From positions 186,001-250,000 of the forward strand of contig NZ_RBXP01000011.1 of assembly GCF_003634965.1 (NCBI RefSeq): a stretch of 64,000 nucleotides of DNA, in the 5' to 3' direction. Below, in pieces: positions 10,586-50,701 of the stretch (positions within the stretch are counted from its first letter, which is position 1; every line of letters begins with the position of its first letter). A model generated the notes under the pieces. That model was given only the letters and a program-made list of their open reading frames with translations. It had not been told where the DNA came from and searched no databases. The translations under genes and the position numbers were made by a program. This DNA comes from Azonexus fungiphilus (GTDB taxonomy: Bacteria > Pseudomonadota > Gammaproteobacteria > Burkholderiales > Rhodocyclaceae).

Positions 10586-13500
10586 TGGAAATCGCGGCTG
10601 GAGGTCTCCAGCCGCCCCAGCCAGGCCGACAGGTCGACCAGGCGCTGGGCGACCAGATGGACGACGCCGTCGCTCGCCTGCAGCTGTCCATAGACCCCGA
10701 GCAGCGGCGCGCTCAGCAGTTCGCGCCGCTGTTTCTCGACCAGCGCCGGCTTGACGACGACGTTGGTCCAGCCGGTTTCATCCTCCAGCGTGACGAAGAC
10801 GATGCCGGTCGCCGTGCCCGGCCGCTGACGGCCGGTGACGATGCCGGCAACGCGGACCAGCGCGCGGTCGCCGCGTTGCGCCAGTTCACCGGCACTGAGG
10901 AAGCGCCGCGCTGCGAGATGTTCGCGCAGCAGGGTCAGCGGGTGCGGGCGCAGGCTGTGGCCGAGCTGGCGGTAATCGGCGACCAGGTTGTCGGCCAGCG
11001 TCGGCGCCGCCAGCTCGACCGCTGCTTCCGGTGCCGGCAGGCCGGCGAAGAGGTCGCCCTGCACCGCCCGCCGGCCGCTGTCGGCGACCTGCCAGGCGGC
11101 CTGGCGGCGATGGCCGGCGAGGCTGCGCAAGGCATCGGCGGCGGCGAGCAGGTCGAGTTCGCGCCTGCCCAGGGCGCAGCGCGCGGCGAGGTCGGCAACA
11201 TCGGAAAATGGCCGGATCTGACGGTCGACCGCAATATTCAAGGCAATTTCACGGCGCAGCCCCTTGATCTCGCGCAGGCCGAGGCGCACCGCGCCACCCT
11301 CGTCGATACGGCTGTCCCAGTCGCTGGCCGTGACATCGGCCGGCAGCACGCTGACGCCGTGGCGGCGGGCGTCCTGGATCAGCATCGACGGCGAGTAGAA
11401 GCCCATCGGCTGGCTGTTGAGCAGGCCGCAGAGGAAGGCTGCCGGATGATGGCGCTTGATCCAGGCCGAGGCATAGACCAGCAGCGCGAAGCTGGCGGCG
11501 TGCGATTCGGGGAAGCCGTATTCGCCGAAGCCCTGGATCTGGGCGACGATACGCTCGATGAAGGCGGCCGGCACGCCGTTGCGCGCCATGCCGGCGCGCA
11601 GCTTGTCCTGGTAGCGGGCGAGATTGCCTTTACGCCGCCAGGCCGCCATCGCCCGCCGCAATTCGTCGGCCTCGCCGGGCGTGAAGCCGGCGGCGACGAT
11701 GGCCAGTTGCATCACCTGTTCCTGGAAGATCGGCACGCCGCAGGTGCGCGCCAGCACCGCGTCGATGGCCGGCGTGATCTGCTCGATACGCTCCTTGCCC
11801 TGGCGCCGTTTCAGGTAGGGATGGACCATGTCGCCCTGGATCGGCCCGGGGCGCACCAGCGAGACCTCGATCACCAGGTCGTAGTAGTTGCGCGGTTTCA
11901 GGCGCGGCAGCATGCTCATCTGCGCCCGCGATTCGACCTGGAAGACGCCCATGCTGTCGGCGCGGCCGAGCATGTCGTAGGTCGCCGCGTCGCCTTCGGG
12001 GATTTCGCTCAAATTCTGCGGTCGACCGCAAGATTCGCCAATAATCGCCAGCATCCGGCGCAGCGCCGACAGCATGCCGAGCGCCAGCACGTCGACCTTC
12101 ATCAACCCAACCGCATCGAGGTCATCCTTGTCCCACTGGATCACCGTGCGCTCGGCCATCGCCGTATTCTCGACCGGTACCAGCCGCGCCAGCGGCCCGC
12201 GCGACATGACGAAGCCGCCGACGTGCTGGGTCAGGTGGCGGGGAAAGCCGCGCAACTGCTCGGCCAGCCACAGCCACTTGGCGACGCGCGGCGACGCCGG
12301 GTCCAGCCCCTGCTCGGCGAAGCGTTCCGGCATCTGCTCGCGTTTGTCCCACCAGGCGAGCGAGGCGGTCAGCGCGTCGATGCGGGCGATGTCGAAGCCG
12401 AGCGCGCGGCCGGCGTCGCGCAGCGCGCCCTTGGTCCGGTAAGTGATGACGGCGGCGGCCAGCGCCGTGCGCTCGCGGCCGTATTTTTCGTAGATGTAGG
12501 CGATGACCTCGTCACGCCGCTCGTGCTCGAAATCGACATCGATGTCGGGCGGCTCGCCGCGCTCCTTGGAGACGAAGCGCTCGAACAGCATCGCCGAGCG
12601 CGCCGGGTCGACCTCGGTGACGCCGAGCGCGAAACAGACCGTCGAGTTCGCCGCCGACCCGCGCCCCTGGCAGAGGATGCCGGCGCCGCGGGCGAAGCAG
12701 ACGATGTCGTAGACGGTCAGGAAATAGGCTTCGTAGCTCAACTCCGCAATCAGTCGCAGTTCGTGTTCGATGCGCTCGCGCACCGCGTCCGGCACGCCCG
12801 CCGGATAGCGCCGGCGCAGCCCGGCCTCGGTTTCGTGGCGCAGCCAGGAGGTCGGCGTGTGGCCGGCGGGGACGATTTCCTCCGGGTATTCGTAGCGCAA
12901 CTCGTCGAGCGAAAACGTGCATTTTTCCGCGATGCGCAGTGTCTCGGCCAGCAGTTCGGGCGGATACAGCCGTGCCAGCCGCAGACGCGAGCGCAGGTGG
13001 CGCTCGCCGTTCGGGAACAGCGCGTGGCCGGCGTCGAACACCGAGGTCTTCAGGCGCAGCGCGGTCAGCACATCCTGCACCGGCCGCCGCGCCCGCACAT
13101 GCATGTGCACGTCGCCGGCCGCCACCAGCGGCAGGCCGCAGGCGGCGCCGAGCGCCTGCAGGTCGGCGAGCCTGGCCGCGTCGTCCGGGCCGGCGTGCAG
13201 TTCGACAGCGATCCAGCAACGCCCGGGAAAACGTTCGGCCAGCCAGCGCCCGTCGGCGACCGAGGGCGTCGCCTCGGGCACCCATAGCACCAGGCAGTCG
13301 GGCAGCGCGCCGTTCGGCGAGATGGCGTTCAGGTCATGGCGCTGCAGCGTGTAGGCGCCCTTCTCCGCCCGCCGCCGGGCAAGCGTGATCAGCGCCGACA
13401 GGTTGCCGTAACCCTCCCGGTTCTGCGCCAGAAAGACCAGTTTCAGGCCGTCGACCGTGCGCATCTCGCTGCCGATCAACAGGCGCGGCATTTTTGCCCC

Positions 13501-13746
13501 GTTTTCACGGTCGACCGTCAAATCCGCCGATTTTTCCAGCGCCCGGAACGCCTGATGCACGCGCACCACGCCGGCCAGCGAGCACTCGTCGGTCAGCGCC
13601 AGCGCCGCATAGCCCTGCGCCACCGCCTGCGCCGCCAGTTCCTCCGGGTGCGAGGCACCGCGCAGGAAGCTGAAGTTGGACAGGCAGTGCAGCTCGGCGT
13701 AGTCGGGAAGGGTGTGAGCTTGATGCAGCAATGAACACCAGAACAA
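10582..13746 (-). CDS. dnaE2: Error-prone DNA polymerase DnaE2 (ImuC), with three internal palindromic elements
   Basis: C-family polymerase that performs damage-induced translesion synthesis with ImuA and ImuB. Order: PHP domain (YAELHCLSNFSFLRGASHPEEL at the start), polymerase palm with the catalytic Asp cluster PPDIDVDFEHERR, helix-hairpin-helix region and a C-terminal OB domain (VRVAGIVTGRQRPGTA). Length (1054 aa) is normal. The frame opens at a TTG at 13746 directly beside a LexA box, so the true start may be an internal TTG at 13731. Three copies of a CGGTCGACCG palindrome lie inside at about residues 77, 573 and 839. The first coincides with what looks like an insert (ADLTVDRENGAKMP) before the conserved RLLIGSEM. 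Confidence 0.93.
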   Translation of the reverse strand: MFWCSLLHQAHTLPDYAELHCLSNFSFLRGASHPEELAAQAVAQGYAALALTDECSLAGVVRVHQAFRALEKSADLTVDRENGAKMPRLLIGSEMRTVDGLKLVFLAQNREGYGNLSALITLARRRAEKGAYTLQRHDLNAISPNGALPDCLVLWVPEATPSVADGRWLAERFPGRCWIAVELHAGPDDAARLADLQALGAACGLPLVAAGDVHMHVRARRPVQDVLTALRLKTSVFDAGHALFPNGERHLRSRLRLARLYPPELLAETLRIAEKCTFSLDELRYEYPEEIVPAGHTPTSWLRHETEAGLRRRYPAGVPDAVRERIEHELRLIAELSYEAYFLTVYDIVCFARGAGILCQGRGSAANSTVCFALGVTEVDPARSAMLFERFVSKERGEPPDIDVDFEHERRDEVIAYIYEKYGRERTALAAAVITYRTKGALRDAGRALGFDIARIDALTASLAWWDKREQMPERFAEQGLDPASPRVAKWLWLAEQLRGFPRHLTQHVGGFVMSRGPLARLVPVENTAMAERTVIQWDKDDLDAVGLMKVDVLALGMLSALRRMLAIIGESCGRPQNLSEIPEGDAATYDMLGRADSMGVFQVESRAQMSMLPRLKPRNYYDLVIEVSLVRPGPIQGDMVHPYLKRRQGKERIEQITPAIDAVLARTCGVPIFQEQVMQLAIVAAGFTPGEADELRRAMAAWRRKGNLARYQDKLRAGMARNGVPAAFIERIVAQIQGFGEYGFPESHAASFALLVYASAWIKRHHPAAFLCGLLNSQPMGFYSPSMLIQDARRHGVSVLPADVTASDWDSRIDEGGAVRLGLREIKGLRREIALNIAVDRQIRPFSDVADLAARCALGRRELDLLAAADALRSLAGHRRQAAWQVADSGRRAVQGDLFAGLPAPEAAVELAAPTLADNLVADYRQLGHSLRPHPLTLLREHLAARRFLSAGELAQRGDRALVRVAGIVTGRQRPGTATGIVFVTLEDETGWTNVVVKPALVEKQRRELLSAPLLGVYGQLQASDGVVHLVAQRLVDLSAWLGRLETSSRDFH
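11212..11241. repeat. Palindromic element copy inside dnaE2 (1)
   Basis: The core CGGTCGACCG lies at 11222-11231, preceded by GGATCTGA and followed by CAATATT. On the coding strand it is read as ITVDR-like peptide NIAVDRQIR. The arms beyond the core are degenerate. Upstream flank GGAAAATGGCCGG resembles the flank of the copy at 41105. Confidence 0.65.
12012..12035. repeat. Palindromic element copy inside dnaE2 (2)
   Basis: The 14-bp perfect palindrome TGCGGTCGACCGCA lies at 12017-12030 and extends to 24 bp with two mismatched pairs. In dnaE2 it is read in a different frame from the other two copies, giving SCGRPQN. Confidence 0.7.
13503..13522. repeat. Palindromic element copy inside dnaE2 (3)
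   Basis: Contains TTTCACGGTCGACCGTCAAA, a 20-bp imperfect palindrome with one mismatched pair, identical over all 20 bases to the copy at 36622-36641 in an unrelated gene. It is flanked by CATTTTTGCC on one side and GATTTTTCC on the other. Confidence 0.8.
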
Positions 13747-13762
13747 CTGTATTTAAAACCAG
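13747..13762. promoter_or_regulatory. LexA box upstream of dnaE2
   Basis: CTGTATTTAAAACCAG is a 16-bp SOS box of form CTG-N10-CAG, one base off the CTGT-N8-ACAG consensus. It touches the first possible dnaE2 codon, so dnaE2 should have its own LexA-repressed promoter, independent of the lexA-imuAB promoter. Confidence 0.75.
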
Positions 13763-13826
13763 TTATTCTAGATCACTCACGCCGCCCCGACGACTCCTTG
13801 GGGGACGAGCCAATCGAGATGAACTG

Positions 13827-14528
13827 CTACTTGGGCTCCGGAATCGCCACCGCTCGAGCAGCAGTCGATACGGCAGGGAGACGCTGTCCAGGCATGCCAA
13901 TGCTGACTCGTACAGGCGGCGGCAATATGGCAACCGGTGCCGCGGCGCCAACCGGCGGGCTGATCAGAGCCGAATGAGCGATCGCCTCAACACGAGCCTG
14001 ATGCCGAGGGAAAAAAGTCAACGCCGGGGCAACATACACCAGAGCAAAAAGCTCCCCATCATCGACTGCACCGTAACCGAAGCCCAACTGGCGCAGGTTA
14101 TCGTTCCGGCGAATCCGCTCGAACTCGAACAGGAAACCTTTCCTGCCAGCAAAACTGCTCGGTTCGATGCGCAGCAACTTGAACACCGAATCGTCCCGGG
14201 TCATCACACTTTCGAACATCGAAACGATTTTTTCAGTCGGCATGTCGCGACGGAACACCACGTTCTGTTTCTTCGTTTGTGCGGCATTATCAGGATGCAT
14301 CACCTGCCCATCCTTGATGCCGGCATAGATGATCAATTCGTCGACGGTGATCCCCTCCATTGTCCATAGCTGCCCCGGCTTTATGCCAGGAAAATCAACA
14401 TGGTTCCAGGGCCCCTCAAGCTGCATGGAAAAGCGTTCGCCAACCTTGTTGGTGCCCGTTTCCACCTTGCGGACGCTACCGCAACCGGCAAGCACCACGA
14501 CGGCTACCATGACAATGAGATACTTCAT
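13827..14528 (-). CDS. Predicted lipoprotein
   Basis: A 233-aa protein with a lipoprotein signal peptide and lipobox LAGC (residues 13-16, MKYLIVMVAVVVLAGCGS). The mature part has FSMQLEGPWNHVDFPG and a mixed alpha/beta region, then an Ala/Pro-rich tail. I do not recognise a named family. Its start overlaps the stop of the M48 peptidase (ATGA), so it is the last gene of a three-gene cassette. A link to outer-membrane or lipoprotein quality control is inferred only from the neighbour. Confidence 0.8.
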   Translation of the reverse strand: MKYLIVMVAVVVLAGCGSVRKVETGTNKVGERFSMQLEGPWNHVDFPGIKPGQLWTMEGITVDELIIYAGIKDGQVMHPDNAAQTKKQNVVFRRDMPTEKIVSMFESVMTRDDSVFKLLRIEPSSFAGRKGFLFEFERIRRNDNLRQLGFGYGAVDDGELFALVYVAPALTFFPRHQARVEAIAHSALISPPVGAAAPVAILPPPVRVSIGMPGQRLPAVSTAARAVAIPEPK

Positions 14529-16392: not shown

Positions 16393-16533
16393 TACGACTC
16401 CAGAAATATTGTTCCACGTCATAATTATGCCCTTGAGATTTCCAAAAGAACAACGCCTCGGTGCAACAAAGCACTGCCACAAGGGTTTTCAGCAAAATGA
16501 CAAACAGTATCGAGCGCAGGTTACATCCAGGAC

Positions 16534-17973
16534 TCAGGCGAACAGGCCGTGCAGGAACCAGCCCTGCGCGTCGCGAAAGATCCACGCCCACTGCCCTTCG
16601 CCGGTACGGGCGACGAAGTAGTCGCGGCGCAGGTCGCCGACGGCAGACTGCTCACCGCTGTCCCACCAGCCGCTTTCCAGCCGTTCGCCGCGGGTGACGA
16701 GTTGCAGCGGACCGTGCCAGTGCGGGCCGTCGACACGTTCGGCCAGCGGCTGCGGTGCCGGCAGCAGCCAGAGCGGGCGCGGCTTGCCGAATGTTGCGGT
16801 CGACGCGGTTTTGGCGGCAAAAATGCCGGCCGGGTCGTCGCTACGGCTGGCGCATTCCGGCCGGTGGTCGGCATGCAGCGCCAGGCTGCGCACGGCGTCG
16901 TCGCCGAGCCGGGCGCGCAGGCGTTCGATGCAGGCGGCCGCACCCTCGCCCTGCACCGCCTGCTCGAACAGGCCAGCGCTGGCGTCGGGCCGGGCGACGA
17001 GCTCGTCGGCCATCAGGCTGAGTGCCTCGACCGGCGCCACCAACTGCAGGCGACTCAGATGCTCGCGCAACAGGCGCATGAAGCGGCCTTCGTCGGCGCA
17101 GGGTTCGCCGAAACGCAGCGGCAGCGCGCTGCTCGAGCCGTCGTCGTGAGTCAGCTGCAGCGTGCCGACGCGCAGCAGCGACTGGCGCACCTGCAGCCAG
17201 CCGGCCAGCGCGGCAAACAGACGCTGCGCGGCGAAGGCCAGACCTTCGGCGAATTCGACGCGCGACGGCAGTTCCAGCCCGGCGGCGAAACGCTCGGGAA
17301 AGACGAAGGCGCGCTGCGGATCGGGCAGTTCGCCGCAGGCGCGCAGCAGGTCGTCGACCGGGCCGTTGCCGATCCGCCGGCGCAAGCCGCCGGCCGGCTG
17401 TGCGCTCAGTTCGCCGAGACGACGCAGGCCGAAAGCGTCGAGCCGGGCGACGACCTCGGCCGGCCAGTCGGGTACGGCACACGGTAAATCGGCCAGCGCC
17501 GCCTGCAGCGCGGCCAGGCTCTCGTAGCAGGCCGCCGCGCCGGCACGCGCCAGCCAGCGGGCGCCGAGCGGCGTCGGTGCGACCGCCCAGTCCACACTCC
17601 AACCCTGTATCCGGCAGCCATCAAGCACGGCCGCGACAATCGCTTCGATACCGCCGAACAGCCGGCGACAGCCGCCGATTTCGAGCAACAGCCCGGCCGG
17701 CGGCGCCAGGCTGACGGTCGGCGTGAAACGCCCGGACCAGCAGGCAAGATCGGCGAGCGCCCGGGCTTCGCGTGCCGGATCGCGCTCGCAGGCGCGCAGC
17801 CCGGGCAGCAGGCCGAGTGCGGTCGACAGCTTGTGGCCGGGCAAAATGCCGGCCGCTGCGGCAACAGGATCGGCGGCCAGAACCCGGCCGCGCGCCGTGA
17901 CGACGCTAGGCGACTGCCGCAGCGGCAGTGCTTCCAGCGTCAGCTGCGGAAAATGCAGGGCCAGCCACAACAC
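16534..17973 (-). CDS. imuB: Y-family DNA polymerase-like mutasome subunit ImuB
   Basis: ImuB is a catalytically inactive Y-family protein that bridges ImuA, DnaE2 and the beta clamp during SOS mutagenesis. The product begins [15 protein letters not shown] and has the Y-family palm/fingers region and little-finger domain. It ends with the typical WIFRDAQGWFLHGLFA. The catalytic acidic residues of active DinB/UmuC enzymes are not obvious. A GTG at 17973 gives the expected N-terminus (479 aa) and overlaps imuA by 68 bp. A degenerate palindromic element (GCGGTCGACGCGGTT near 16797) lies in the stretch before RPLWLLP. Confidence 0.9.
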   Translation of the reverse strand: MLWLALHFPQLTLEALPLRQSPSVVTARGRVLAADPVAAAAGILPGHKLSTALGLLPGLRACERDPAREARALADLACWSGRFTPTVSLAPPAGLLLEIGGCRRLFGGIEAIVAAVLDGCRIQGWSVDWAVAPTPLGARWLARAGAAACYESLAALQAALADLPCAVPDWPAEVVARLDAFGLRRLGELSAQPAGGLRRRIGNGPVDDLLRACGELPDPQRAFVFPERFAAGLELPSRVEFAEGLAFAAQRLFAALAGWLQVRQSLLRVGTLQLTHDDGSSSALPLRFGEPCADEGRFMRLLREHLSRLQLVAPVEALSLMADELVARPDASAGLFEQAVQGEGAAACIERLRARLGDDAVRSLALHADHRPECASRSDDPAGIFAAKTASTATFGKPRPLWLLPAPQPLAERVDGPHWHGPLQLVTRGERLESGWWDSGEQSAVGDLRRDYFVARTGEGQWAWIFRDAQGWFLHGLFA

Positions 17974-18619
17974 GTGTTTTCCTTCCCGGTCGGGGGATCT
18001 CGACCTGCAACAGACGCGACGCCGGCCGGCCGCGCCGCTTGAGGATGCGCAGCGCCAGCCGGTCGGCACCGGCGGCCAGCGTCAGACGCAAAGGTGCCGG
18101 CGACGGGGTTGCAGCGTCCACGGTCGACCGCCACAAAACGGCAAAAACCGACTGCCCTTCGGCCGCCACCTGCAGGCGGCGCAGCGCCCGGGCATCGATG
18201 CTGGCGTCCGGCCAGGCGAGCAGCCCGGCGAAGCCGCCGCATCTGAGCAATTGCTCGACACACCAGGCCAACTGCTTGCCCGGCCGGATCACCAGCAGGC
18301 GCTCCGGCGCCACGCCGGCCGCGGCCCAGGCCGGCGCATGCGGCAGCCAGGGCGGTGCAACCAGGGCCAGGCAACCGCCCTCGCCCGACAAGCGGGCCAG
18401 CGCCGGCAGCAGCAGGCTGATTTCGCCGATGCCGCCACGGTCAACCAGGATTTCGGTGAGATTGCCGCGCGGCCAGCCGCCGCCCGGCAGTTCGGCGTCG
18501 AGTTCGGCGTAACCGCTGGCGATGGTGCCGGCCGCCAGGCCGGGCAAGGCATCGCCGCGCCAGATGTCGCCGCGCGCCAGGACCGCCGCCAAACTCACCG
18601 GCGACGGCTGCGCGCTCAT
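17906..18619 (-). CDS. imuA: Mutasome subunit ImuA
   Basis: A 237-aa RecA-like protein without a complete Walker A, the usual form of ImuA in the LexA-ImuA-ImuB-DnaE2 cassette. Visible blocks are [26 protein letters not shown] and the [19 protein letters not shown] segment. Its start overlaps the lexA stop by 4 bp. A CGGTCGACCG core lies in it at 18121-18130 and encodes part of [11 protein letters not shown]. Confidence 0.88.
18121..18130. repeat. Palindromic element core inside imuA
   Basis: An exact CGGTCGACCG core, followed on the plus strand by CCACAAAACGGCAAAAA, which resembles half of the longer copies. Only the core is palindromic here, so this could be a decayed copy or a chance match. 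Confidence 0.45.
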
Positions 18620-20609: not shown

Positions 20610-20697
20610 GCCAAATCCTCGAATTAATTAATTTGCGAAATACTACCAAAATTAATAAGCAAACGGCGTTTTTTGTCGTCCTGAAAATCGGCTACCA

Positions 20698-20716
20698 TCC
20701 ACCGTCGACCGCAACA
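20698..20716. repeat. Possible degenerate palindromic element upstream of a small gene
   Basis: CCGTCGACCG at 20702-20711 differs from the core by one base and lies 15 bp before the start codon at 20726, next to a CGTTTTTTGTCG tract. It may be a decayed copy of the dispersed element. Confidence 0.35.
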
Positions 20717-20725
20717 GGACCGCCC

Positions 20726-21031
20726 ATGAAACTCCAGCACCTCGCCATCGGCGACCGCTTCGAATACGCAGGGAAAATCTTCGTCAAGACCGGCCCGCTC
20801 ACCGCTTCCTCGGACCAGGGCGGCCAGCAGGTCATTCCCCGTTACGCCGTGCTCAAGCCGCTCGACCAACCGCTGCCGGAAAGCCGGGCCAGCACCCGCG
20901 ACAAGGTGAACAAGGCCGCCGTGCTGGCCGCCTTCGACCGTTTCTACCGGACCAGCGAACGGCTGTGCGACGCCGCCGGCCACGCCGAACTGGCGCGTGC
21001 GCGCAGCGAATTCATCGCCCTCTTCGACTGA
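20726..21031 (+). CDS. Unrecognised 101-aa protein
   Basis: A small hydrophilic protein beginning MKLQHLAIGDRFEYAGKIF, a beta-rich start, followed by a basic helical half ending RARSEFIALFD. There is no signal peptide or membrane segment. I recognise no family. The start at 20726 is the only ATG giving a compact protein. Its stop abuts the convergent dgt stop with no spacing. Confidence 0.65.
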   Translation: MKLQHLAIGDRFEYAGKIFVKTGPLTASSDQGGQQVIPRYAVLKPLDQPLPESRASTRDKVNKAAVLAAFDRFYRTSERLCDAAGHAELARARSEFIALFD

Positions 21032-22384
21032 TCAGGTCGGCAGGTCGTAGCCTTTGAGCTTGCGATACATGTCGACGGCGTAGGAGTCGGTCATCCCGGC
21101 AACGAAATCGGCCACCTGAAGCAGGCGCACGTAAGGATCGGCATCGGGCTGGCCGCCGTGACCAAGAAATTGCGTCGGCAGCAACTTGAGCAGCATCCGC
21201 TCGCGCGTCGTCACCCGCGTCCCGGGAACCCGCGCGGCGGCCTCGACGGCATTGGTGAACAAGCCGAGCAAGGCACCGAGGACCTCGAAGCCGGCGGTCT
21301 CGATCTCGAGCGCCGGGCGCGCCGTGTAGATCGTTTCCTTGGCCATCTTCAGCACCGCCTGCAACGGCACGCCGACCGGCGAGGCGGCGAGCAGCTCGTC
21401 GTCGAAACTGCCGTCGAGGATGGCCGCCTCGTTCTCCAGGAAAACCCCGGCGGCACTTTCGAGCAGCCGGCCGATCGCCTTGGCGCGCAGATACTCGAGG
21501 CGCTCCTTGGGATCGTGCAGGCGCTCCAGGCGGCCGCCGTTGATGGTGTTGCCGGCGAGATCGGCAAGCAGGCACTCGGCATCGCGGTAAGGCACGAAAC
21601 CGAGCCGGGCAGCGTCCTCCATGTCGACGATCAGGTAGCAGGTGTCGTCGGCGACCTCGACCAGGAAAGCCAGTGGATGGCGGCGCCAGGCCTGGCCGGG
21701 AAGGCGTTCGACCAGTCCGGTCGAGCGGGCGACGCGGGCGAAGTTGTCGGCATCGTGCTGGAAGAAGCCGAACTTCTTGCCGCTTTTTCCCGGTAAATCG
21801 ACGTCGACCGTGGACGGTCGCGGATACTTGGTGAAAGTCGCCAGGACCGCGCTGGTCAGCTGCAGGCCGCCCGGGTTGGCCGGGCTCTGCAGCCGCGAGA
21901 CGATGCGGAAGCCCTGGGCGTTGCCCTCGTATTTCTCGAAGTCGGCGCGCTGCGCCGGGCTGAAGGCATGACGTTCGAGCAACCCGGAGCTGCGGAACCA
22001 TTCGCGGATCGCATCCTCGCCGGCGTGGCCGAAGGGCGGGTTGCCGATGTCGTGGGCCAGGCAGGCGGCGGCGACGATCGCCCCGAAGTCGCCCGACTCG
22101 ACGTCCTTCAACCCGTGCCGGGCGATGATCTCGCGACCGACGACGGCGCCCAGCGAGCGGCCGACGCAGCTGGCCTCCAGACTGTGCGTCAGGCGGGTAC
22201 GCACGTAATCGCTCTTCGACAGCGGGAAAACCTGGGTCTTGTCCTTCAGCCGGCGAAAGGCCGAGGTGAACACGATACGGTCGTAATCCTGCTGGAAAGC
22301 CGTGCGCTCGGCCGTGCCCGGCGCCTTGCCGGCGCCCAGGCGCTCGCTCGACAGCAGTTTTTCCCAGATCTTCTTCTTGCCCAT
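21032..22384 (-). CDS. dgt: dGTPase (deoxyguanosinetriphosphate triphosphohydrolase-like)
   Basis: HD-domain hydrolase that cleaves dNTPs to deoxynucleoside and tripolyphosphate. The 450-aa protein shows the HD ligands in RTRLTHSLEA and LAHDIGNPPFGHAGED and the SAFRRLKDKTQVFP block near the N-terminus. The ATG at 22384 gives MGKKKIWEKLLSSER, typical of the family. A degenerate palindromic element (GACGTCGACCGTGGACGGTCG near 21800) encodes STVDVDLPGKSG just before KKFGFF, a position that varies within the family. Confidence 0.9.
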   Translation of the reverse strand: MGKKKIWEKLLSSERLGAGKAPGTAERTAFQQDYDRIVFTSAFRRLKDKTQVFPLSKSDYVRTRLTHSLEASCVGRSLGAVVGREIIARHGLKDVESGDFGAIVAAACLAHDIGNPPFGHAGEDAIREWFRSSGLLERHAFSPAQRADFEKYEGNAQGFRIVSRLQSPANPGGLQLTSAVLATFTKYPRPSTVDVDLPGKSGKKFGFFQHDADNFARVARSTGLVERLPGQAWRRHPLAFLVEVADDTCYLIVDMEDAARLGFVPYRDAECLLADLAGNTINGGRLERLHDPKERLEYLRAKAIGRLLESAAGVFLENEAAILDGSFDDELLAASPVGVPLQAVLKMAKETIYTARPALEIETAGFEVLGALLGLFTNAVEAAARVPGTRVTTRERMLLKLLPTQFLGHGGQPDADPYVRLLQVADFVAGMTDSYAVDMYRKLKGYDLPT

Positions 22385-22421
22385 GTGCGTTCCGCCGGTG
22401 CTTTTGCAATGGGCGCCGAGT

Positions 22422-35905: not shown

Positions 35906-36985
35906 GTGCGCGCCCGCCTCCCCGGCCTGCTGCTGGCTTGCGCGCTGGCCGGCTGCGGCACGGTCAATCCGTATTACGACGCCGGCAAGGCACATCACCG
36001 GCCGGATGGCTTCGTCAACAGCGATCCGGCCGCCCGGGTCGAGGGCGCGCCCTGGTACGAAGTGATCTACCGGCGCTGGCGCGGCGATTTCCGCCCCGCC
36101 GCCGAACCGGCCGGCGGCTACGCCGCCTTCGCCGAACGCTGGCGGGCAGTCCCCGACCGCGCCCGCCTCGACGATCCGGCGGGGCCGCCGCGGCTGACCT
36201 GGCTCGGCCACGCCAGCCTGCTGCTGCAGGCCGGCGGGCGCAACATCCTGATCGACCCCAACCTCTCGTCCTTCGCCGGCCCGTCGCCGTGGCTGGCCGC
36301 CGAACGCAAGGTGCCGCCGCCGCTCGAGGTCGCCGGGCTGCCGCGCATCGACCTGGTGCTGATCTCGCACAACCACTACGACCACCTCGACGAGCCGACG
36401 CTGCGGGCCCTGCTCGCGCGCGGCGACACGCCGGAGTTCATCGTTCCGCTCGGCGTCAAGGCCTGGTTCGACGCCGCCGGCATCGGCCGGGTGCGCGAAC
36501 TCGACTGGTGGCAGCGGATCGATTTCGACGGCCTCAGCCTGCACCTGACGCCGGCCCAGCACTGGAGCAAACGCACCCTGTTCGACGCCAACGCGACGCT
36601 GTGGGGCGGTTTTTTCCTCGATTTCACGGTCGACCGTCAAAAAAGCACATTTTTGTACACCGGCGACACCGGCTACTCGTCGGACTTCCGCGAGATCCGT
36701 CGCCGGCTCGGCCCGGTCGACCTGCTGGCGGTACCGATCGGCGCCTACGAGCCGCGCGAGTTCATGCGCCGCCAGCACAACAACCCGGACGAAGCCGTGC
36801 GGATCATGGAAGACACAGGCGCCGCCCAGGCCATCGGCGTGCACTGGGGCAGCTTCGCGCTGTCGCAGGAAAGCCTCGACCAGCCGCCGCGCGACCTCGC
36901 CGCAGCCCTCGCCGGCCACGGTGTCGCCGCAGAACGTTTCTGGCTGCCGCGCCAGGGCGAGACGCGCGACCTGCCGCTACGCTGA
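35906..36985 (+). CDS. MBL-fold metallo-hydrolase lipoprotein with an internal palindromic element
   Basis: A 359-aa metallo-beta-lactamase-fold hydrolase of the NAPE-PLD/UlaG-like group. It starts at GTG 35906 and has a lipoprotein signal with lipobox LAGC (residues 13-16), so it is lipid-anchored. The metal motif is SHNHYDHLD (about residues 153-161), with further ligands in HWGSFALS. Residues 239-247 (DFTVDRQKS) are encoded by a dispersed palindromic element placed before LYTGDTGY, a site where relatives have a short turn. The substrate is unknown. Confidence 0.82.
36622..36641. repeat. Palindromic element copy inside the MBL-fold gene
   Basis: TTTCACGGTCGACCGTCAAA, 20 bp, with one mismatched pair; identical to 13503-13522 in dnaE2 although the host genes are unrelated. 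Preceded by TTTTTTCC and followed by AAAGCACATTTTTG. Confidence 0.8.
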
Positions 36986-40859: not shown

Positions 40860-40871
40860 ACCGAGCTGGCG

Positions 40872-41078
40872 CTAGCGCGGCGTCGCGTACAGACGGGGCT
40901 GCAACACCTCGGCCAGCCAGTTCATGAACAGCCGCACGCGCTTGGCCAGGTGGCGCCGGTTGCCGTAGAGCAGCGTCACCGGCAGCGCCGGCGGCCGGTA
41001 GTCGGGCAGGATTTCGACCAACTCACCGCGCGCCAGCGGCGGCTGCATGCCATGCAGCGGCGCCTGGATGCTAATGCC
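40872..41078 (-). pseudogene. LysR-family regulator remnant (C-terminal fragment)
   Basis: The last 68 or so codons of a LysR substrate-binding domain are recognisable (ISIQAPLHGMQPPLARGELV, LPDYRPPALPVTLLYGNRR). The frame upstream to 41249 contains no helix-turn-helix and encodes the palindromic element (STVKIRQKCPE). The break lies right at that element. The N-terminal three-quarters of the gene are missing. Confidence 0.8.
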
Positions 41079-41104
41079 CGGGAAGACTTCCGGGCATTTT
41101 TGCC

Positions 41105-41132
41105 GGATTTTTACGGTCGACCGCAAAATTCC
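41105..41132. repeat. Palindromic element at the break point of the LysR remnant
   Basis: GGATTTTTACGG, the core centre and CCGCAAAATTCC make a 28-bp imperfect palindrome centred on the core at 41114-41123. It is preceded by GGGCATTTTTGCC and followed by CGAGTTTTTGC. Confidence 0.8.
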
Positions 41133-41322
41133 CGAGTTTTTGCTGAAAGTCGATCGAACGACGGCCGGACACAAGGGTCTTCGTGAAACCAGGCGGGATG
41201 CCGGGAGCCCCCAAAACCGCTTGCGCGCCTCTCCGGAGGCAGCTAGCATAAATCCTGCAATATTCTTTATTTTTCAATAGCTTAAATTCAACTATCCGTT
41301 GAATTTCCGTAGGAGAAAGACC

Positions 41323-41618: not shown

Positions 41619-41642
41619 GCCGGGATCGCTCCCGGCCTTTTT
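41619..41642. terminator. Bidirectional Rho-independent terminator
   Basis: An AAAAAAA tract, GCCGGGA, TCGC, TCCCGGC, then CTTTTT. It ends the orphan gene on the plus strand and probably ppsA on the minus strand. Confidence 0.9.
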
Positions 41643-41649
41643 CGTTTTT

Positions 41650-41682
41650 CCCGGAATCTGACGGTTGACCGTCAAATCCGGG
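41650..41682. repeat. Palindromic element downstream of ppsA
   Basis: A 33-bp imperfect palindrome: CCCGGAATCTGACGG and CCGTCAAATCCGGG with a one-base bulge and the variant core CGGTTGACCG at 41662-41671. It lies 11 bp past the ppsA stop, outside any gene. Confidence 0.8.
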
Positions 41683-41692
41683 CAATTTTCGT

Positions 41693-44068
<2,376 letters not shown>

Positions 44069-45021: not shown

Positions 45022-45052
45022 TTTATCCAGACAAACGAATGATGGAGCGAGG

Positions 45053-45838: not shown

Positions 45839-46503
45839 GCGCGCGTGACCGCATCCTCGGCAAATTGCGCCAGAACGCGCCGTCGACCGTCAGATCGCTG
45901 CCCGACGTCGCCGCCTGGTACGCCAGCCATCGCCCGAGCGAGACCGCCGACGCGCGGGTCGCCCGCTTCCGCCACTACATCGAACTCGCCCACGCCGAAG
46001 TCTATTCGGTCAGCCGCGGCGACTGGACGGCAACCCTGCACCAGGTGCTCAAGGCCCGCGGCATCGACCGCCTGCTGGTCGCCGAAGGCACGCCGCACGG
46101 CGAGCTGGCGCTCGACGAACTGCCGCCGCGCGGCGTCGAATGCAGCCTCTACGACATGGCCATCGAGGCCTGGAAGAGCGAACTGTTCAACGCCACGCCG
46201 GCCAGCCTGACCGCCGCCCGCGGCGCCATCGCCGAGACCGGCACGCTGATCCTGTGGCCGGACGAAAAGGAACCGCGGCTGATGTCGCTGGTGCCGCCGG
46301 TGCACATCGTGCTGCTCGACGCGACGAAAATCCACAACACCTTCCACGAGGCGATGACCAGCGAAGGCTGGGCCGACGGCCTGCCGACCAATGCGCTGCT
46401 GATCTCCGGTCCGTCGAAGACCGCCGACATCCAGCAGACGCTGGCCTACGGCGCGCACGGCCCGAAGGAACTGATCGTCCTGCTGCTGGAGGGCGAGGCA
46501 TGA
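45835..46503 (+). CDS. lutC: L-lactate oxidation protein LutC (LldG)
   Basis: A 222-aa LUD-domain protein (AETGTLILWPDEKEPRLMSL, about residues 130-150; HIVLLDATKIHNTF), part of the LutABC complex. The core CCGTCGACCG (45880-45889), one base off the dispersed palindrome, encodes part of APSTVRSL near the N-terminus. ATGA overlaps join it to lutA and lutB. The order lutA-lutC-lutB differs from Bacillus lutABC. Confidence 0.9.
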   Translation: MSARDRILGKLRQNAPSTVRSLPDVAAWYASHRPSETADARVARFRHYIELAHAEVYSVSRGDWTATLHQVLKARGIDRLLVAEGTPHGELALDELPPRGVECSLYDMAIEAWKSELFNATPASLTAARGAIAETGTLILWPDEKEPRLMSLVPPVHIVLLDATKIHNTFHEAMTSEGWADGLPTNALLISGPSKTADIQQTLAYGAHGPKELIVLLLEGEA

Positions 46504-47936
46504 GCGAACATACCTTGCACTTCAAGCCGGCCGAGGGTTTCCGCGCCCGTTCCAAGGCCGTCGTCGACAGCCCCTTCCTGCGTCAGAGCTTCCGCGGCGC
46601 GATGGATTTCCTGATGAGCAAGCGCGCCGCCCAGTTCCCCGACCCCGAGGAACTGGAAAGCCTGCGCAGCCTGGGCGAAGCGATCCGCCAGTACAACCTG
46701 GCCAAGCTGCCCGACCTGCTTTTGCAGCTGGAAAGCCGGTTGACCGTCAACGGCATCAAGGTGCACTGGGCCGAGACGCCGGACGAGGCCAACGCGATCA
46801 TCCTCGGCATCGTCGAGGGCCACGGCGCGACCCGGATGGTCAAGGGCAAGTCGATGGTCAGCGAGGAAATCGAGCTCAACCACGCCGCCGAAGCGGCCGG
46901 CATCGAGGCGCTGGAATCCGACATGGGCGAGTACATCGTCCAGCTGGCCAATGAAAAGCCGTCGCACATCATCATGCCGGCGATCCACAAGACCAAGGAG
47001 GAAATCGCCCGCCTGTTCCATGAGAAGGTGCCCGGCGTCGATTACACCGACAACGTCGATGCGCTGATCCAGATCGGCCGCAACGTGCTGCGCCGCAAGT
47101 TCCTCGAAGCCGAGATCGGCCTTTCCGGCGTCAATTTCGCCGTCGCCGAGACCGGCACGCTGTGCCTGGTCGAGAACGAGGGCAACGGCCGCATGTGCAC
47201 CACGGCACCGGCCATCCACATCGCCATCACCGGCATCGAGAAGATCGTCGAGAAACTCGAACACGTACCGCCGCTGCTCTCCTTGCTGACCCGTTCGGCG
47301 ACCGGCCAGAACATCTCGACCTACTTCAACATGATCTCCTCGCCGCGCAAACCCGGCGAAAAGGACGGTCCCGAGGAAGTGCACCTGGTGCTGCTCGACA
47401 ACGGCCGCAGCCAGGCCTACGCCGACGAGCAGCTGCGCAAGACGCTGCAGTGCATCCGCTGCGGCGCCTGCATGAACCACTGCCCGGTGTATACGCGCAT
47501 CGGTGGCCACGCCTACGGCACCACCTACCCCGGGCCGATCGGCAAGATCATCTCGCCGCACATGCTCGGCCTCGACGCCACCGCCGGCCTGACCACGGCA
47601 TCGTCCCTGTGCGGTGCCTGCGGCGAGGTCTGCCCGGTCAAGATACCGATTCCCGAACTGCTCATCCGCCTGCGCAACGAGGCCTTCTCGGCGCCGCAGG
47701 CCAAGCCGGCGATGCGCGGCCAGGGCGCCGGCCACTCGCCGCTGATCTCGGCGATCTGGCGCGGCTGGGCGCTGGTTTACCGTTCGCCCGCGCTGTACCG
47801 CGCGGCCTCCTGGCTGGGCAGCCGTTTCGGCTGGCTGCTGCCGGCGCATCAGGGCGCGTGGACGAGCGTCCGCGAACCGCTGCGGCCGGCGCCGCAACGC
47901 CTGCGTGATCGTTTAAAGGAACGGAACAAAGCATGA
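46500..47936 (+). CDS. lutB: L-lactate oxidation Fe-S protein LutB (LldF)
   Basis: A 478-aa LutB with an N-terminal LUD domain (ETGTLCLVENEGNGRMCTT) and two [4Fe-4S] motifs, CIRCGACMNHCPVY and CGACGEVCPVK (about residues 318-375). It supplies the electron relay of the lactate oxidase. The start at 46500 overlaps the lutC stop (ATGA), and its end overlaps the dld start. Confidence 0.93.
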   Translation: MSEHTLHFKPAEGFRARSKAVVDSPFLRQSFRGAMDFLMSKRAAQFPDPEELESLRSLGEAIRQYNLAKLPDLLLQLESRLTVNGIKVHWAETPDEANAIILGIVEGHGATRMVKGKSMVSEEIELNHAAEAAGIEALESDMGEYIVQLANEKPSHIIMPAIHKTKEEIARLFHEKVPGVDYTDNVDALIQIGRNVLRRKFLEAEIGLSGVNFAVAETGTLCLVENEGNGRMCTTAPAIHIAITGIEKIVEKLEHVPPLLSLLTRSATGQNISTYFNMISSPRKPGEKDGPEEVHLVLLDNGRSQAYADEQLRKTLQCIRCGACMNHCPVYTRIGGHAYGTTYPGPIGKIISPHMLGLDATAGLTTASSLCGACGEVCPVKIPIPELLIRLRNEAFSAPQAKPAMRGQGAGHSPLISAIWRGWALVYRSPALYRAASWLGSRFGWLLPAHQGAWTSVREPLRPAPQRLRDRLKERNKA

Positions 47937-50701
47937 GCCAGCTACTGACCGCCACCCTGCGTGAACAACTGCCGACCTCGCAGGTCATCACCGATGAATT
48001 GCGCCGTCTCGCCTACGGCACCGACGCCAGCTTCTACCGCCTGATTCCGCAGGTCATCGCGATCATCGAAAACGAAGCCCAGGCCCGCCACGTCATGGCC
48101 ACCGCCCATCGCCTGCAGGTTCCACTGACCTTCCGTGCCGCCGGCACCAGCCTTTCCGGGCAGGCGATTTCGGACGGCATCCTGGCGCTGATCGGCGAAG
48201 GTTTCGCCACCTGCGAAATCGCGGCGGACGGCGGCAGCGTCCGTCTCGGCCCGGGCATCGTCGGCGGCGAGGTCAATCGCCGGCTGGCGCCGCTCGGGCG
48301 CAAGATCGGTCCCGACCCGGCCTCGATCGGTGCCGCCAAGATCGGCGGCATCGCCGCCAACAACGCTTCCGGGATGTGCTGCGGCACGGCCCAGAACAGC
48401 TACCGGACGTTGGCCGGCCTGCGCGTGATGCTTGCCGACGGCACCCTGCTCGACACCGAAGACCCGCTCAGCCGCGACGCCTTCGCCAAGTCGCATGCCG
48501 TCCTGCTCGGCGAACTCGAGCGCCTGGGCCAGTCGACGCGGGCCAACCCACGGCTGGCCGAACGCATCCGCCAGAAGTTCAAGATCAAGAACACCACCGG
48601 CTACAGCCTCAACGCGCTGGTCGACTTCGAAGACCCCTTCGACATCCTCGCGCACCTGATGATCGGCTCCGAAGGCACGCTCGGCTTCATTTCGCGGATC
48701 ACCTACCAGACCGTCGTCGAGGACCCGTGCAAGGCCTCGGCGCTGGTCTTCTTCCCCGACATCCGCAGCGCCTGCGAAGCGGTCATCCGGCTCAAGACGC
48801 AGCCGGTCGCGGCGGTCGAACTGCTCGACCGGCCGGCGTTGCGCTCGGTCCAGGACAAACCCGGCCTGCCGGCGGTGATGCGCAGCCTGGGCGACGACGC
48901 GGCGGCACTGCTGATCGAGGTACGGGCCGGTGACGCGGCCGCGGTCGCCGACAGGATCGCCGCCGTGCACGGCGCACTGGCCGGCGTCGCCACGGTCGAG
49001 CCAATCCAGTTCTCGACCGACCCGGCGACCTGCGAAATGTACTGGAAGGTGCGCAAGGGCACGTTCCCGGCGGTCGGCGCAATGCGCAAGACGGGCACGA
49101 CGGTGCTGATCGAGGACGTCGCCTTCCCGATCGCCGCGCTCGCCGACGCCACCCTCGACCTGCAGGCGCTGCTCAGGAAGCATGCCTACGACGAGGCGAT
49201 CATTTTCGGCCACGCCCTCGAAGGCAACCTGCACTTCGTGATCACCCAGGATTTCGCGACGCCGAGCGAGATCGACCGCTACGCGCGCTTCATGGACGAA
49301 CTGTGCGAGATGGTGGTCAGCCGCTACGACGGCTCGCTCAAGGCCGAGCACGGCACCGGCCGCAACATGGCGCCCTTCGTCGAACTTGAATGGGGGCGCG
49401 AGGCGACCGAACTGATGCACCGGATCAAGGCGCTGTTCGACCCGGCCGGCCTGCTCAACCCGGGCGTCATCCTCAACGCCGACCCGCAGGCCCACCTCGC
49501 CCACCTCAAGCCGATGCCGGCGGCCGAAGACATCATCGACCGCTGCATCGAATGCGGCTTCTGTGAACCGCTGTGCCCCTCGCACCGGCTGACGCTGAGC
49601 CCGCGCCAGCGCATCACCAGCGTCCGCGAACTGGCCCGCCGCGAGGCGGCCGGCGAAGCCGCCGGCAAGATCGCCGAGGACTACGCCTACATGGGCCTCG
49701 ACACCTGCGCCGGCTGCGGCCTGTGCTCGACCGCCTGCCCGGTCGGCATCGACACCGGCGACCTCACCCGGCGCCTGCGCGGACGTCGTCTGAACGACGG
49801 CGCGCGCGCGGTCAACGCCTGGAGCGGGCGCAATTTCGGCGTCCTCGCCGGTGCTGCCCGCGCCGGCCTGGCGCTCGGCCACGCCGCCGCCGCGGTGGTC
49901 GGCCAGAAAACCCTGGCGAAGCTTTCCGGCGGCGCCTGGAAGTTGCCGATGCCGCGCCCCGGCCGCGCCCCGGCGGCGATCCGGGCGAGCGGCGACCCGG
50001 TCGTCTATTTCCCGACCTGCGGCGGCCGCATCTTCGGCCCGACCGGCGCCGGCGACGCCCAGCTCGGCGATGTCGTCAGCGAACTGCTGCGCCGTGCCGG
50101 TTACGCGCCGATCCTGCCCGAAGGTTTCGACAAGCTGTGCTGCGGCCAGATGCTGGCGAGCAAGGGCCTGGCGATCGAGGCCGACGCCATGTCGGCGCAG
50201 CTCGAGGCGGCGCTGCTGAAAGCCTCGGACAACGGCCGCTACCCGGTGATCATGGACGCCAGCACCTGTACCGCCCGCATGCAGAAGCACCTGGCCGGCC
50301 GCCTGCAACTCTTCGATTTCCACGAATTTGCCCACGACGCGCTGCTGCCACGGCTGATGATCGTCCGCCAGCACGAACCGGTCGCCCTGCACATCAACTG
50401 CAGCGTGCGCAAGAGCGGCAGCGATGCCAAGCTGCGCGCCCTGCTCAAGGCCTGCGCCGAAACCGTGATCGAGCCGGCCGCCGTGACCTGCTGCGGCTTC
50501 GCCGGCGACCGCGGCTTCGCCGTTCCCGAACTCAACCGGCACGCGCTGCGCCACCTCAAGCCGGCCCTGCCGGCCGCCTGCGGTTGTGGCGTGTCGACCA
50601 ACCGGACCTGCGAAATCGGCCTCTCCGCCGAATCCGGCATCGACTACCGATCGATCGCATATTTGCTCGAAAAATGCAGTCGACCGCAAAACACCTGTTG
50701 A
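47933..50701 (+). CDS. FAD/Fe-S D-lactate dehydrogenase (Dld-II type)
   Basis: A 922-aa enzyme that oxidises D-lactate or a similar D-2-hydroxyacid to the ketoacid. Order: FAD-binding type 4 domain (about 35-215, with RAAGTSLSGQAISDG), the FAD-linked oxidase C-terminal domain (about 270-520), two [4Fe-4S] ferredoxin motifs (CIECGFCEPLCP and CAGCGLCSTACP, about residues 545-600) and CCG domains (CCGQM, CCGFAG). It ends with a palindrome core (EKCSRPQNTC). It overlaps lutB by 4 bp and completes the lactate operon for both isomers. Confidence 0.9.
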   Translation: MSQLLTATLREQLPTSQVITDELRRLAYGTDASFYRLIPQVIAIIENEAQARHVMATAHRLQVPLTFRAAGTSLSGQAISDGILALIGEGFATCEIAADGGSVRLGPGIVGGEVNRRLAPLGRKIGPDPASIGAAKIGGIAANNASGMCCGTAQNSYRTLAGLRVMLADGTLLDTEDPLSRDAFAKSHAVLLGELERLGQSTRANPRLAERIRQKFKIKNTTGYSLNALVDFEDPFDILAHLMIGSEGTLGFISRITYQTVVEDPCKASALVFFPDIRSACEAVIRLKTQPVAAVELLDRPALRSVQDKPGLPAVMRSLGDDAAALLIEVRAGDAAAVADRIAAVHGALAGVATVEPIQFSTDPATCEMYWKVRKGTFPAVGAMRKTGTTVLIEDVAFPIAALADATLDLQALLRKHAYDEAIIFGHALEGNLHFVITQDFATPSEIDRYARFMDELCEMVVSRYDGSLKAEHGTGRNMAPFVELEWGREATELMHRIKALFDPAGLLNPGVILNADPQAHLAHLKPMPAAEDIIDRCIECGFCEPLCPSHRLTLSPRQRITSVRELARREAAGEAAGKIAEDYAYMGLDTCAGCGLCSTACPVGIDTGDLTRRLRGRRLNDGARAVNAWSGRNFGVLAGAARAGLALGHAAAAVVGQKTLAKLSGGAWKLPMPRPGRAPAAIRASGDPVVYFPTCGGRIFGPTGAGDAQLGDVVSELLRRAGYAPILPEGFDKLCCGQMLASKGLAIEADAMSAQLEAALLKASDNGRYPVIMDASTCTARMQKHLAGRLQLFDFHEFAHDALLPRLMIVRQHEPVALHINCSVRKSGSDAKLRALLKACAETVIEPAAVTCCGFAGDRGFAVPELNRHALRHLKPALPAACGCGVSTNRTCEIGLSAESGIDYRSIAYLLEKCSRPQNTC
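50677..50686. repeat. Degenerate palindromic element at the end of dld
   Basis: CAGTCGACCG, one base off the core, follows TTTGCTCGAAAAATG and precedes CAAAACACC. It encodes the last residues of the dld product, so the element defines that C-terminus. Confidence 0.5.

Follow-up and report, generated by a model that had tools for sequence, protein, structure and literature searches.

The 64,000-nucleotide stretch of Azonexus fungiphilus DNA analyzed here (hereafter the window) raises the question of why one short palindromic sequence, with the core CGGTCGACCG, should recur both within genes and between them. A sequence-only reading had located six exact cores, at 11222, 12019, 13508, 18121, 36627, and 41114, all of which are present, and had overlooked a seventh at 59031. 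With these 7 copies, CGGTCGACCG ranks first among the palindromic 10-mers of the window (runner-up, 6 copies), and core sites with at most one mismatch number 34, compared with 7.9 in dinucleotide shuffles. A 56-bp model, whose 456 kb of training sequence include the window, scored 26 window sites at 14 bits or more, 20 of which are described below with no strand assigned to any. The near-exact and degenerate copies that had been proposed at 16797, 20702, 21801, 41662, 45880, and 50677 each score at least 16 bits with this model.

Three of the exact-core elements lie in imuC/dnaE2 (10582-13746, minus strand; NCBIfam NF004225, error-prone DNA polymerase), at 11199..11254 (core 11222-11231; 41.7 bits), 11996..12051 (core 12019-12028; 36.4 bits), and 13485..13540 (core 13508-13517; 44.5 bits), the last with A/T tracts on both sides. 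The others are found at 36604..36659 (core 36627-36636; 41.3 bits) in the gene of a metallo-beta-lactamase-fold hydrolase (35906-36985, plus strand; Pfam Lactamase_B_2), at 59008..59063 (core 59031-59040; 31.0 bits) in lpxD (58643-59689, minus strand; TIGR01853), at 41091..41146 (core 41114-41123; 44.2 bits) in a small ORF with weak support (40872-41249, minus strand), where the copy is possibly intergenic, and at 18098..18153 (core 18121-18130; 25.3 bits), where the tract is one-sided. This last core is assigned by the gene caller to the intergenic gap between an ImuB-like gene (16534-18069, minus strand; Pfam IMS, 25.3 bits) and lexA, but a 237-aa ORF (17906-18619) spans it and also contains a degenerate element at 18415..18470 (core 18438-18447; 18.5 bits). 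Degenerate elements also occur in the ImuB-like gene at 16774..16829 (core 16797-16806; 23.0 bits), in the dGTP triphosphohydrolase gene (21032-22582, minus strand; TIGR01353) at 21778..21833 (core 21801-21810; 25.2 bits), in ppc (51300-54113, plus strand; NF000584) at 51694..51749 (core 51717-51726; 25.8 bits), in rseP (62484-63848, minus strand; TIGR00054) at 62966..63021 (core 62989-62998; 21.3 bits), and at the end of the ORF 47933-50701, at 50654..50709 (core 50677-50686; 16.3 bits). An intergenic element with the core CGGTTGACCG is located downstream of the phosphoenolpyruvate synthase gene (41693-44068, minus strand; NF005057) at 41639..41694 (core 41662-41671; 43.4 bits; hairpin z of -2.5), and a degenerate intergenic one at 4321..4376 (core 4344-4353; 21.3 bits). 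The remaining degenerate elements are at 2539..2594 (core 2562-2571; 24.6 bits), 2941..2996 (core 2964-2973; 19.8 bits), 8657..8712 (core 8680-8689; 21.1 bits), 20679..20734 (core 20702-20711; 18.7 bits), and 45857..45912 (core 45880-45889; 19.7 bits).

The recurrence extends far beyond the window. Throughout the genome CGGTCGACCG occurs 344 times, against 116 for the reversed pattern, and in 456 kb the model, which was trained on those same 456 kb and was also used to score the controls, finds 151 sites (about 1 per 3 kb) where about 4 are expected (4.0 in Markov-5 text and 2 in the reversed sequence). The element spans 46-56 bp and consists of a near-invariant GTYRAC center with two A/T tracts on each side, one helical turn (about 11 bp) apart. 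Around 54 cores the mean A/T content is 0.57-0.70 at +3..+7 and 0.59-0.85 at +13..+17 from the core, over a background of 0.34, and the tracts reach 17-18 bp from the core; the T tracts noticed earlier beside several copies are indeed part of the element. Such tracts are absent from the flanks of the HIP-like 10-mer GGCGATCGCC (25 copies). In palindrome scans CGGTCGACCG came out on top in genomes G000 (56 copies, 9.5 expected) and G147 (16, 1.3 expected). Perfect copies and those with a single mismatch number 112 and 282 in G000 (both strands) and, for the 10-mer, 29 and 65 in G359, while the 12-mer CCGGTTGACCGT has 22 perfect copies in G359 against 23 for all single mismatches summed.

In coding sequence there are 37 exact cores, whereas 100 synonymous shuffles gave a mean of 7.9 and a maximum of 15. 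A codon-usage artefact is thereby rejected, and the refuting condition named by the sequence-only reading, counts no higher than in codon-usage-shuffled controls, did not come true. Of these 37 cores, 24 are in the frame that reads xVDR, mostly TVDR or AVDR. When the 151 sites are assigned with a simple GC3-based gene caller, 111 are coding and 40 intergenic, an excess for intergenic DNA, which makes up 12% of the total (p=2e-6). The 37 classable intergenic copies are divided among convergent (7), tandem (25), and divergent (5) gene pairs, for which the corresponding DNA amounts to 7.8, 25.3, and 11.1 kb. Even spacing of the copies was looked for and not seen, as the gaps look random (CV 0.94; random 0.83-1.17). 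A weak depletion is found in low-GC DNA (0.9 versus 1.75 sites per 5 kb; Spearman 0.23, p=0.03), which perhaps was acquired. Two of five folded intergenic copies form hairpins with z below -6 and are long, near-perfect inverted repeats.

How the copies came about can be read from alignments with element-poor relatives, in which exact cores were used regardless of their flanks. At coding sites, 61 of 83 alignments are gap-free (the 61 represent 47 distinct poor-species sequences and are thus partly non-independent), and 51 of the 61 copies are only 1-3 substitutions away from the sequence of the poor species; the other 22 contain gaps. At intergenic sites 3 of 14 are gap-free and 11 have gaps, which also occur at gene ends in example alignments. 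At site 16801 the outer tract was built by synonymous changes. Coding copies therefore appear to have arisen mostly by base changes in place and not by insertion, and comparison with orthologs indicates that the copies are not simply conserved as ordinary coding sequence.

High copy numbers are restricted to one genus, which we infer to be Azonexus/Dechloromonas. With a cut-off ratio of 1.3, set within the empty interval from 1.10 to 1.56, 39 of its 76 genomes are rich in the element and 37 are poor. The two classes are interspersed on a tree built from the single locus gltA-sdhA for 61 of the 76 genomes (the 15 omitted are G831, G823, and genomes with partial or no matches), which implies that richness was gained or lost about 14 times; presence and near-absence are found among species whose gltA-sdhA DNA is 80-94% identical. 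The lowest rich genome has 127 copies, while the maximum among 290 genomes of 61 other genera of the family is 71. A few genomes outside the genus exceed the reversed control by ratio at low counts (G037, 51 versus 17; G009, 34 versus 14), an observation that weighs against an uptake function. A strict 29-mer pattern matched 12 of 395 genomes, all within the genus, and a strict 32-mer none, both being too narrow; a looser pattern matched 10 stretches. Scans of k-mers and palindromes for another dialect in poor species, covering 416 kb in G786 and 220-240 kb in G781, revealed no motif with flank tracts. The strongest palindrome of G786, TCGTCGACGA (11 copies, 1.6 expected), was rejected as a dialect in view of its equal commonness in G000 (14, 2.9 expected) and its lack of tracts.

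The rich genomes use two dialects, the palindromic CGGTCGACCG of the source species and CGGTTGACCG (TG). Among the four bearers profiled, G000 (56 sites) and G147 (16 sites) have equal tracts on both sides, whereas the CGGTTGACCG dialect is one-sided in both genomes profiled, G359 and G327, where dyad symmetry is absent. The outer tracts of the two sides contain 4.69 and 2.45 A/T of 5 in G359 (29 sites, p=7e-6), whose sign approximates GATTTCAATTTTGGCCATTTTTTCCGGTTGACCGTGGGAAT, and 4.58 and 2.58 in G327 (12 sites, p=5e-4). Palindromy is thus a property of one dialect only, the form in these two sister species being non-palindromic. No strand bias was detected for the one-sided dialect in a small sample from two genomes (24:17, p=0.35). 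Dialect follows the tree, with 2 changes on 32 rich tips compared with a mean of 8.1 and a minimum of 4 in shuffles.

The core with two phased A/T tracts, the origin in place, the absence of any preferred strand, the enrichment between genes, and the dialects that differ by clade are all characteristic of the uptake signal sequence (USS), the kind of tag with which Haemophilus picks out and imports kin DNA, and on this comparison the element is probably a DNA-uptake signal, a genus-specific analog of the USS of Pasteurellaceae and the DNA uptake sequence (DUS) of Neisseriaceae. We infer uptake, a receptor, and drive by transformation as follows: a receptor on the cell surface, belonging to the type IV pilus/competence system, would bind both the GTYRAC core and the A/T tracts set in phase with the helix, fragments of kin DNA bearing the sign would be drawn in preferentially, and homologous recombination would then spread sign-bearing alleles, such that copies would build up by substitution within and between genes. 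According to passages of PMC1626085, the USS has a short core with two A/T-rich segments alongside, the second about 12 bp past the first; passages of that paper and of PMC7811141 on Haemophilus influenzae and Actinobacillus pleuropneumoniae also describe hundreds of coding and intergenic copies, mutation in place, and clade dialects, all of which resemble our element. The present core, CGGTYRACCG, is nevertheless different from AAGTGCGGT/ACAAGCGGT, the host belongs to a different class of Proteobacteria, and in the putative uptake sign of the source species the palindromic core is flanked by tracts on each side. The two-sided tracts of G000 and G147 correspond to a USS-type layout that is doubled, and the palindromic sign may, in this reading, be two overlapping one-sided signs that share a core and are readable from either strand. 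The DUS is likewise a genome-wide sign with dialects, and Frye 2013 describes overlapping DUS pairs with dyad symmetry for S. muelleri and Kingella, but it is described without flanking motifs in PMC1626085. Its reported receptor is ComP (PMC3868556).

ComEC exceeded the cut-off in 68 of 76 genomes, a ComP_DUS-family pilin in 70, and a ComEA-type protein in 67, and none of them splits rich from poor; ComEA falls below the cut-off in 9 genomes, 5 of them rich, including the complete genome G268, and ComEA-type and pilin families are present in rich and poor genomes alike. The presence of FimT, ComP_DUS-type pilin, or ComEA gave no separation among the 76 genomes, and 6 of the 7 without a FimT match are poor. 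After 10 of the 76 genomes were set aside as ambiguous, ComEC is, by our own reading, clearly broken in 8 of the remaining 31 poor genomes and in 3 of the 35 rich ones (Fisher p=0.097), a difference that is no more than suggestive of ComEC loss as the rich/poor switch. Minor-pilin operon layouts (FimT, ComP_DUS-type) showed no correspondence with dialect or richness, and hence no receptor was identified. That competence genes do not separate the two classes weighs against the uptake reading, as do the gapped coding and intergenic alignments and the failure of an excess of perfect over mismatched copies in G000 and for the 10-mer of G359.

The uptake signals described in the consulted papers, apart from DUS pairs, are not long palindromes, and a palindromic site points to a protein that acts as a dimer, which also weighs against the uptake reading. 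An abundant intracellular dimer, nucleoid-associated or chromosome-organizing, whose binding bends the DNA across these phased tracts would fit the dyad symmetry and the helical phasing over about 4-5 turns in G000 and G147, the density of the sites, and their intergenic excess. We nevertheless consider it unlikely, given the clearly one-sided form in the two sister species and a patchiness among close relatives that is unexpected for chromosome organization; no gene tracking the motif was found in a search that was not unbiased. The "widespread protein-binding site" proposed by the sequence-only reading comes near the mark, the element being a genome-wide recognition-type motif. A DNA methyltransferase or a repair bias acting on GTYRAC/GGTCGACC might instead maintain a highly iterated palindrome like the cyanobacterial HIP1 (GCGATCGC), in keeping with a palindromic core whose near-invariant hexamer is of a kind recognized by methyltransferases and with the alternate HIPs that accompany matching enzymes in some cyanobacterial lineages (Elhai 2015). 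HIP1 is, however, an 8- to 10-mer linked to methyltransferases, for which the consulted part of that paper mentions neither phased flanks nor a one-sided form, and the element does not fit that description, having another core and phased flanks. An enzyme site of 6-10 bp would leave the tracts out to 17-18 bp, their spacing, and the one-sided dialect unexplained, which makes such maintenance improbable.

REP- and MITE-type palindromic repeats are likewise dispersed inverted repeats, and they insert. Short mobile repeats in decay would agree with the long intergenic inverted repeats and the gapped sites, but gap-free orthologs largely refute them as the source of the coding copies, which arose by substitution and whose reading-frame preference and synonymous tract-building at site 16801 are difficult to reconcile with insertion. 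Descent from such repeats thus seems very improbable, and the "non-autonomous palindromic repeat family" that was the other proposal of the sequence-only reading is not supported for coding copies. Equally slight is the chance of a chromosome orientation or recombination signal (KOPS-, AIMS-, or Chi-like) or a terminator family. The motif is short and abundant, and strong hairpins are possible for some intergenic copies, but a palindrome has no orientation, the one-sided dialect has no strand bias, most copies are inside genes, and intergenic ones are not concentrated between convergent genes.

In the open-licence literature, no papers on an uptake sequence in Rhodocyclales were found, none of the matches listed for Dechloromonas with natural transformation or an uptake sequence names that genus, and none of those listed for Azonexus or Dechloromonas with competence names either. 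No title among the matches listed concerns such an element in searches on Dechloromonas palindromes and repeats, or these genera in searches on the core sequence, and the word palindrome is absent from the examined part of the D. aromatica genome paper. Strong uptake preferences are described only for Pasteurellaceae and Neisseriaceae in the consulted parts of this literature. Returning to the DNA-uptake signal, we lean, by analogy, towards regarding these bacteria as a third lineage that takes up self-DNA, with a USS-like sign that within one genus has both a strand-blind, palindromic dialect and a one-sided one, and with about 14 rich/poor transitions on the one-locus tree. If this is true, uptake specificity converges on the same design of a core plus phased A/T tracts and can swap a symmetric for an asymmetric reading. 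The origin of strong uptake specificity is an open question, and the 39 rich and 37 poor genomes, with dialects of two symmetries, form a natural series on the rise, change, and death of uptake signals. The sign would also make it possible to predict what DNA is exchanged among these bacteria, and it would offer a route to transform them.

The core CGGTCGACCG occurs exactly seven times in the window, at 11222, 12019, 13508, 18121, 36627, 41114 and 59031; the first six had been located by the sequence-only reading, and 59031 is an additional one. With up to one mismatch, 34 sites were found versus 7.9 in dinucleotide shuffles, and the genome (3.55 Mb in 20 contigs, with the window at C1:186001-250000) contains 344 exact cores versus 116 for the pattern read backwards. 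The flanks of exact cores are non-random. Around 54 exact cores, taken from the window and 392 kb of the same contig, the A/T fraction going outward from the core was 0.57-0.70 at +3 to +7, 0.19-0.30 at +8 to +12, 0.59-0.85 at +13 to +17 and 0.09 at +19, against a background of 34% A/T. This double A/T tract was absent around the control palindromic 10-mers CGCTCGAGCG, GGCGATCGCC and CGGCGCGCCG (8 to 25 copies each), including the HIP1-like GGCGATCGCC, which has 6 copies in the window and 25 profiled in 456 kb; two other palindromic controls, with 1 and 3 copies, were uninformative, and a non-palindromic one had 0 copies. An iterated symmetric 56-bp model detected 151 sites of at least 14 bits in 456 kb, about one per 3 kb, where fifth-order Markov text gave 4.0 and reversing the sequence gave 2; the GTYRAC hexamer is near-invariant across the 151 sites. 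The 26 such sites within the window include all the degenerate copies noted by the sequence-only reading, whose observation is confirmed and extended. Six lie in a cassette of imuC/dnaE2, an ImuB-like gene and lexA (10582-19221).

Codon usage as the cause of the excess is ruled out by synonymous shuffles, a control that had been proposed together with the original observation: 385 called genes contain 37 exact cores versus a mean of 7.9 and a maximum of 15 in 100 within-gene synonymous-codon shuffles, and model sites number 107 versus 26-39 in ten shuffles. The exact coding cores prefer the frame reading xVDR, mostly TVDR or AVDR (24 of 37). Intergenic DNA is enriched in the element: it makes up 12% of the sequence and holds 40 of the 151 model sites (p=2e-6). 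Some intergenic palindromic copies are predicted to form hairpins, at 5154 (z -6.2) and 8976 (z -2.9) of locus L012, at 12786 of locus L001 (z -7.6), at 41662 of the window (z -2.5) and, weakly, at 41114 of the window (z -1.8), and these may double as terminators.

Among 346 Rhodocyclaceae genomes at least 90% complete, 56 in the window's genus and 290 in 61 other genera, the relaxed core CGGTYRACCG reaches 613 copies within the genus and at most 71 outside it, where modest excesses over the reversed control were seen at low counts in G037 (51 to 17) and G009 (34 to 14). G702, which belongs to another genus (g202), also has a modest excess, 80 cores versus 2 for the reversed control. All 76 genomes of the window's genus fall into two groups by the core-to-control ratio, 37 poor (0.21-1.10) and 39 rich ones (1.56-6.01; 127-613 cores), divided at a threshold of 1.3. 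We infer that this genus is Azonexus/Dechloromonas, because genomes of named species, when scanned with a pattern, gave 10 stretches, which belong to records bearing the names Dechloromonas, Azonexus, Rhodocyclaceae or Betaproteobacteria. The two states are partly clustered and have often switched: a gltA-sdhA tree of 61 genomes requires 14 changes, versus a mean of 20.7 and a minimum of 14 in 1000 shuffles. The window's nearest relatives at this locus, G788, G786 and G787 (94, 93 and 92% identical), are all poor, and G368, also 92% identical, is rich.

The sequence-only reading had proposed either a palindromic repeat family or a widespread protein-binding site, and for coding copies a mobile repeat can be rejected. 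A spanning match in a poor species was available for 97 of the 209 exact cores of rich species in all fetched loci. Among the 83 coding cores, 61 matches were gap-free, 10 had gaps of at least 10 and 12 had smaller gaps or insertions; only 3 of the 14 intergenic matches were gap-free. Where a coding match was gap-free, the poor counterpart departs from the core at 0-5 positions (1-3 in 51 of the 61), and coding copies therefore mostly arise in place. When a 20-kb TCA-cycle region was aligned with 20 relatives, coding site 17482 of locus L013 was seen to arise by substitutions in a gapless alignment. At site 16801, a gene end, the core or a near form is present in six of nine other aligned rich species (G368, G293, G281, G254, G327, G359) and missing in rich G338, G784 and G783 and in all seven aligned poor species. 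The final codons of the gene preceding it read TTTTTT in the window's own genome, G000, and the six core-bearing species, and TTCTTT in the other ten, a synonymous change building the A/T tract. In G794, which lies outside the alignment block and with a ratio of 1.10 is poor but close to the threshold, the site has TTTTTT and an apparently decayed core.

The element exists in two dialects. The form that prevails in G359 (613 cores) is CGGTTGACCG; when oriented by it the element, there about GATTTCAATTTTGGCCATTTTTTCCGGTTGACCGTGGGAAT, is one-sided, with two A/T tracts on the left and none as strong on the right. G327 also has a one-sided form, and G147 has the symmetric one. In these genomes and G000, the four in which flanks were profiled, A/T positions out of 5 in the left and right outer tracts average 4.69/2.45 in G359 (n=29, p=7e-6), 4.58/2.58 in G327 (n=12, p=5e-4), 3.84/3.88 in G000 (n=56) and 4.38/4.44 in G147 (n=16). 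When dialects are cut by the CG share, 14 of the 39 rich genomes lie below 0.40 and 25 at 0.46-0.84, and the dialect changes twice on the 32 rich tips of the gltA-sdhA tree versus 8.1 times in shuffles. The one-sided form showed no strand preference (24:17, p=0.35).

According to PMC1626085, the uptake signal sequence (USS) of Pasteurellaceae consists of a core and, to one side of it, two A/T-rich segments, of which the second is centred 12 positions further out than the first in the H. influenzae type. It is described as originating by mutation and not insertion, showing no significant bias in orientation, being commoner in non-coding DNA and being divided into clade dialects; the weak and sparse USS of H. 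ducreyi is interpreted there as an old loss of uptake. PMC7811141 names strong uptake preferences for two families and suggests that rigidity and bending at A/T tracts aid uptake. From architecture and evolution, we consider that the present element is probably a DNA-uptake signal.

The symmetry of the window's form could also suggest a dimeric intracellular protein that recognises the element, which we regard as unlikely, or a methylation-linked palindrome, which seems less probable still. The arms of individual copies vary largely independently (outer-tract correlation -0.03), and a strong outer tract stands on both sides of 29, one side of 24 and neither side of 3 of 56 exact cores. As a DNA-uptake signal, the palindromic dialect is readable as an overlapping dyad-symmetric pair, like the paired DNA uptake sequences of S. 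muelleri, which, according to Frye 2013, may indicate dimer-based recognition. Core pairs 29-30 bp apart with one arm in common, at 12756/12786 of L001 and at 185195/185224, 185522/185551 and 280520/280549 of G147:C1, fit this reading because the inner tract of one core lies about where the other's outer tract is expected.

The one-sided form was also found in two IMG/VR virus records (L169 and L170), one with 1 core in 37.6 kb and the other with 3 cores in 40.6 kb, the latter with genes matching phage primase and tail families; the symmetric pattern used for the search was found in no IMG/VR record. These cores are not against uptake, nor strongly for it, because temperate phages of Pasteurellaceae likewise accumulate USS, according to PMC6776037.

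Among the uptake machinery, ComEC was at the family cut-off in 68, ComP_DUS-family pilins in 70 (0 of 14 control genomes), ComEA-type domains in 67 and FimT-type in 69 of the 76 genomes, and the presence of none of these separates rich from poor. Five of the nine genomes below the ComEA cut-off are rich; poor genomes account for the other four and for six of the seven lacking FimT. Minor-pilin operons near fimT have at least three layouts that track neither richness nor dialect, and therefore no receptor is named. In loci L099-L118 the ComP_DUS-type pilin adjoins fimT or lies about 2.3 kb or some 5-8 kb off, differing between close species, and the operon looks to have been exchanged between lineages. 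In G781, G785, G833, G832, G812, G817, G814, G201, G359 and G801 the pieces of the comEC match lie a few to tens of kb apart. The breaks often fall at similar family positions (about 146, 161-166 and 590), which would fit repeated entry of mobile elements into this gene for the DNA-uptake channel. By our reading of the matches, with 10 ambiguous genomes excluded, ComEC is clearly disrupted in 8 of 31 poor versus 3 of 35 rich genomes, a difference that is not significant (p=0.097). If the element is an uptake signal, the breakage in those three rich genomes, G359, G801 and G201, must be recent.
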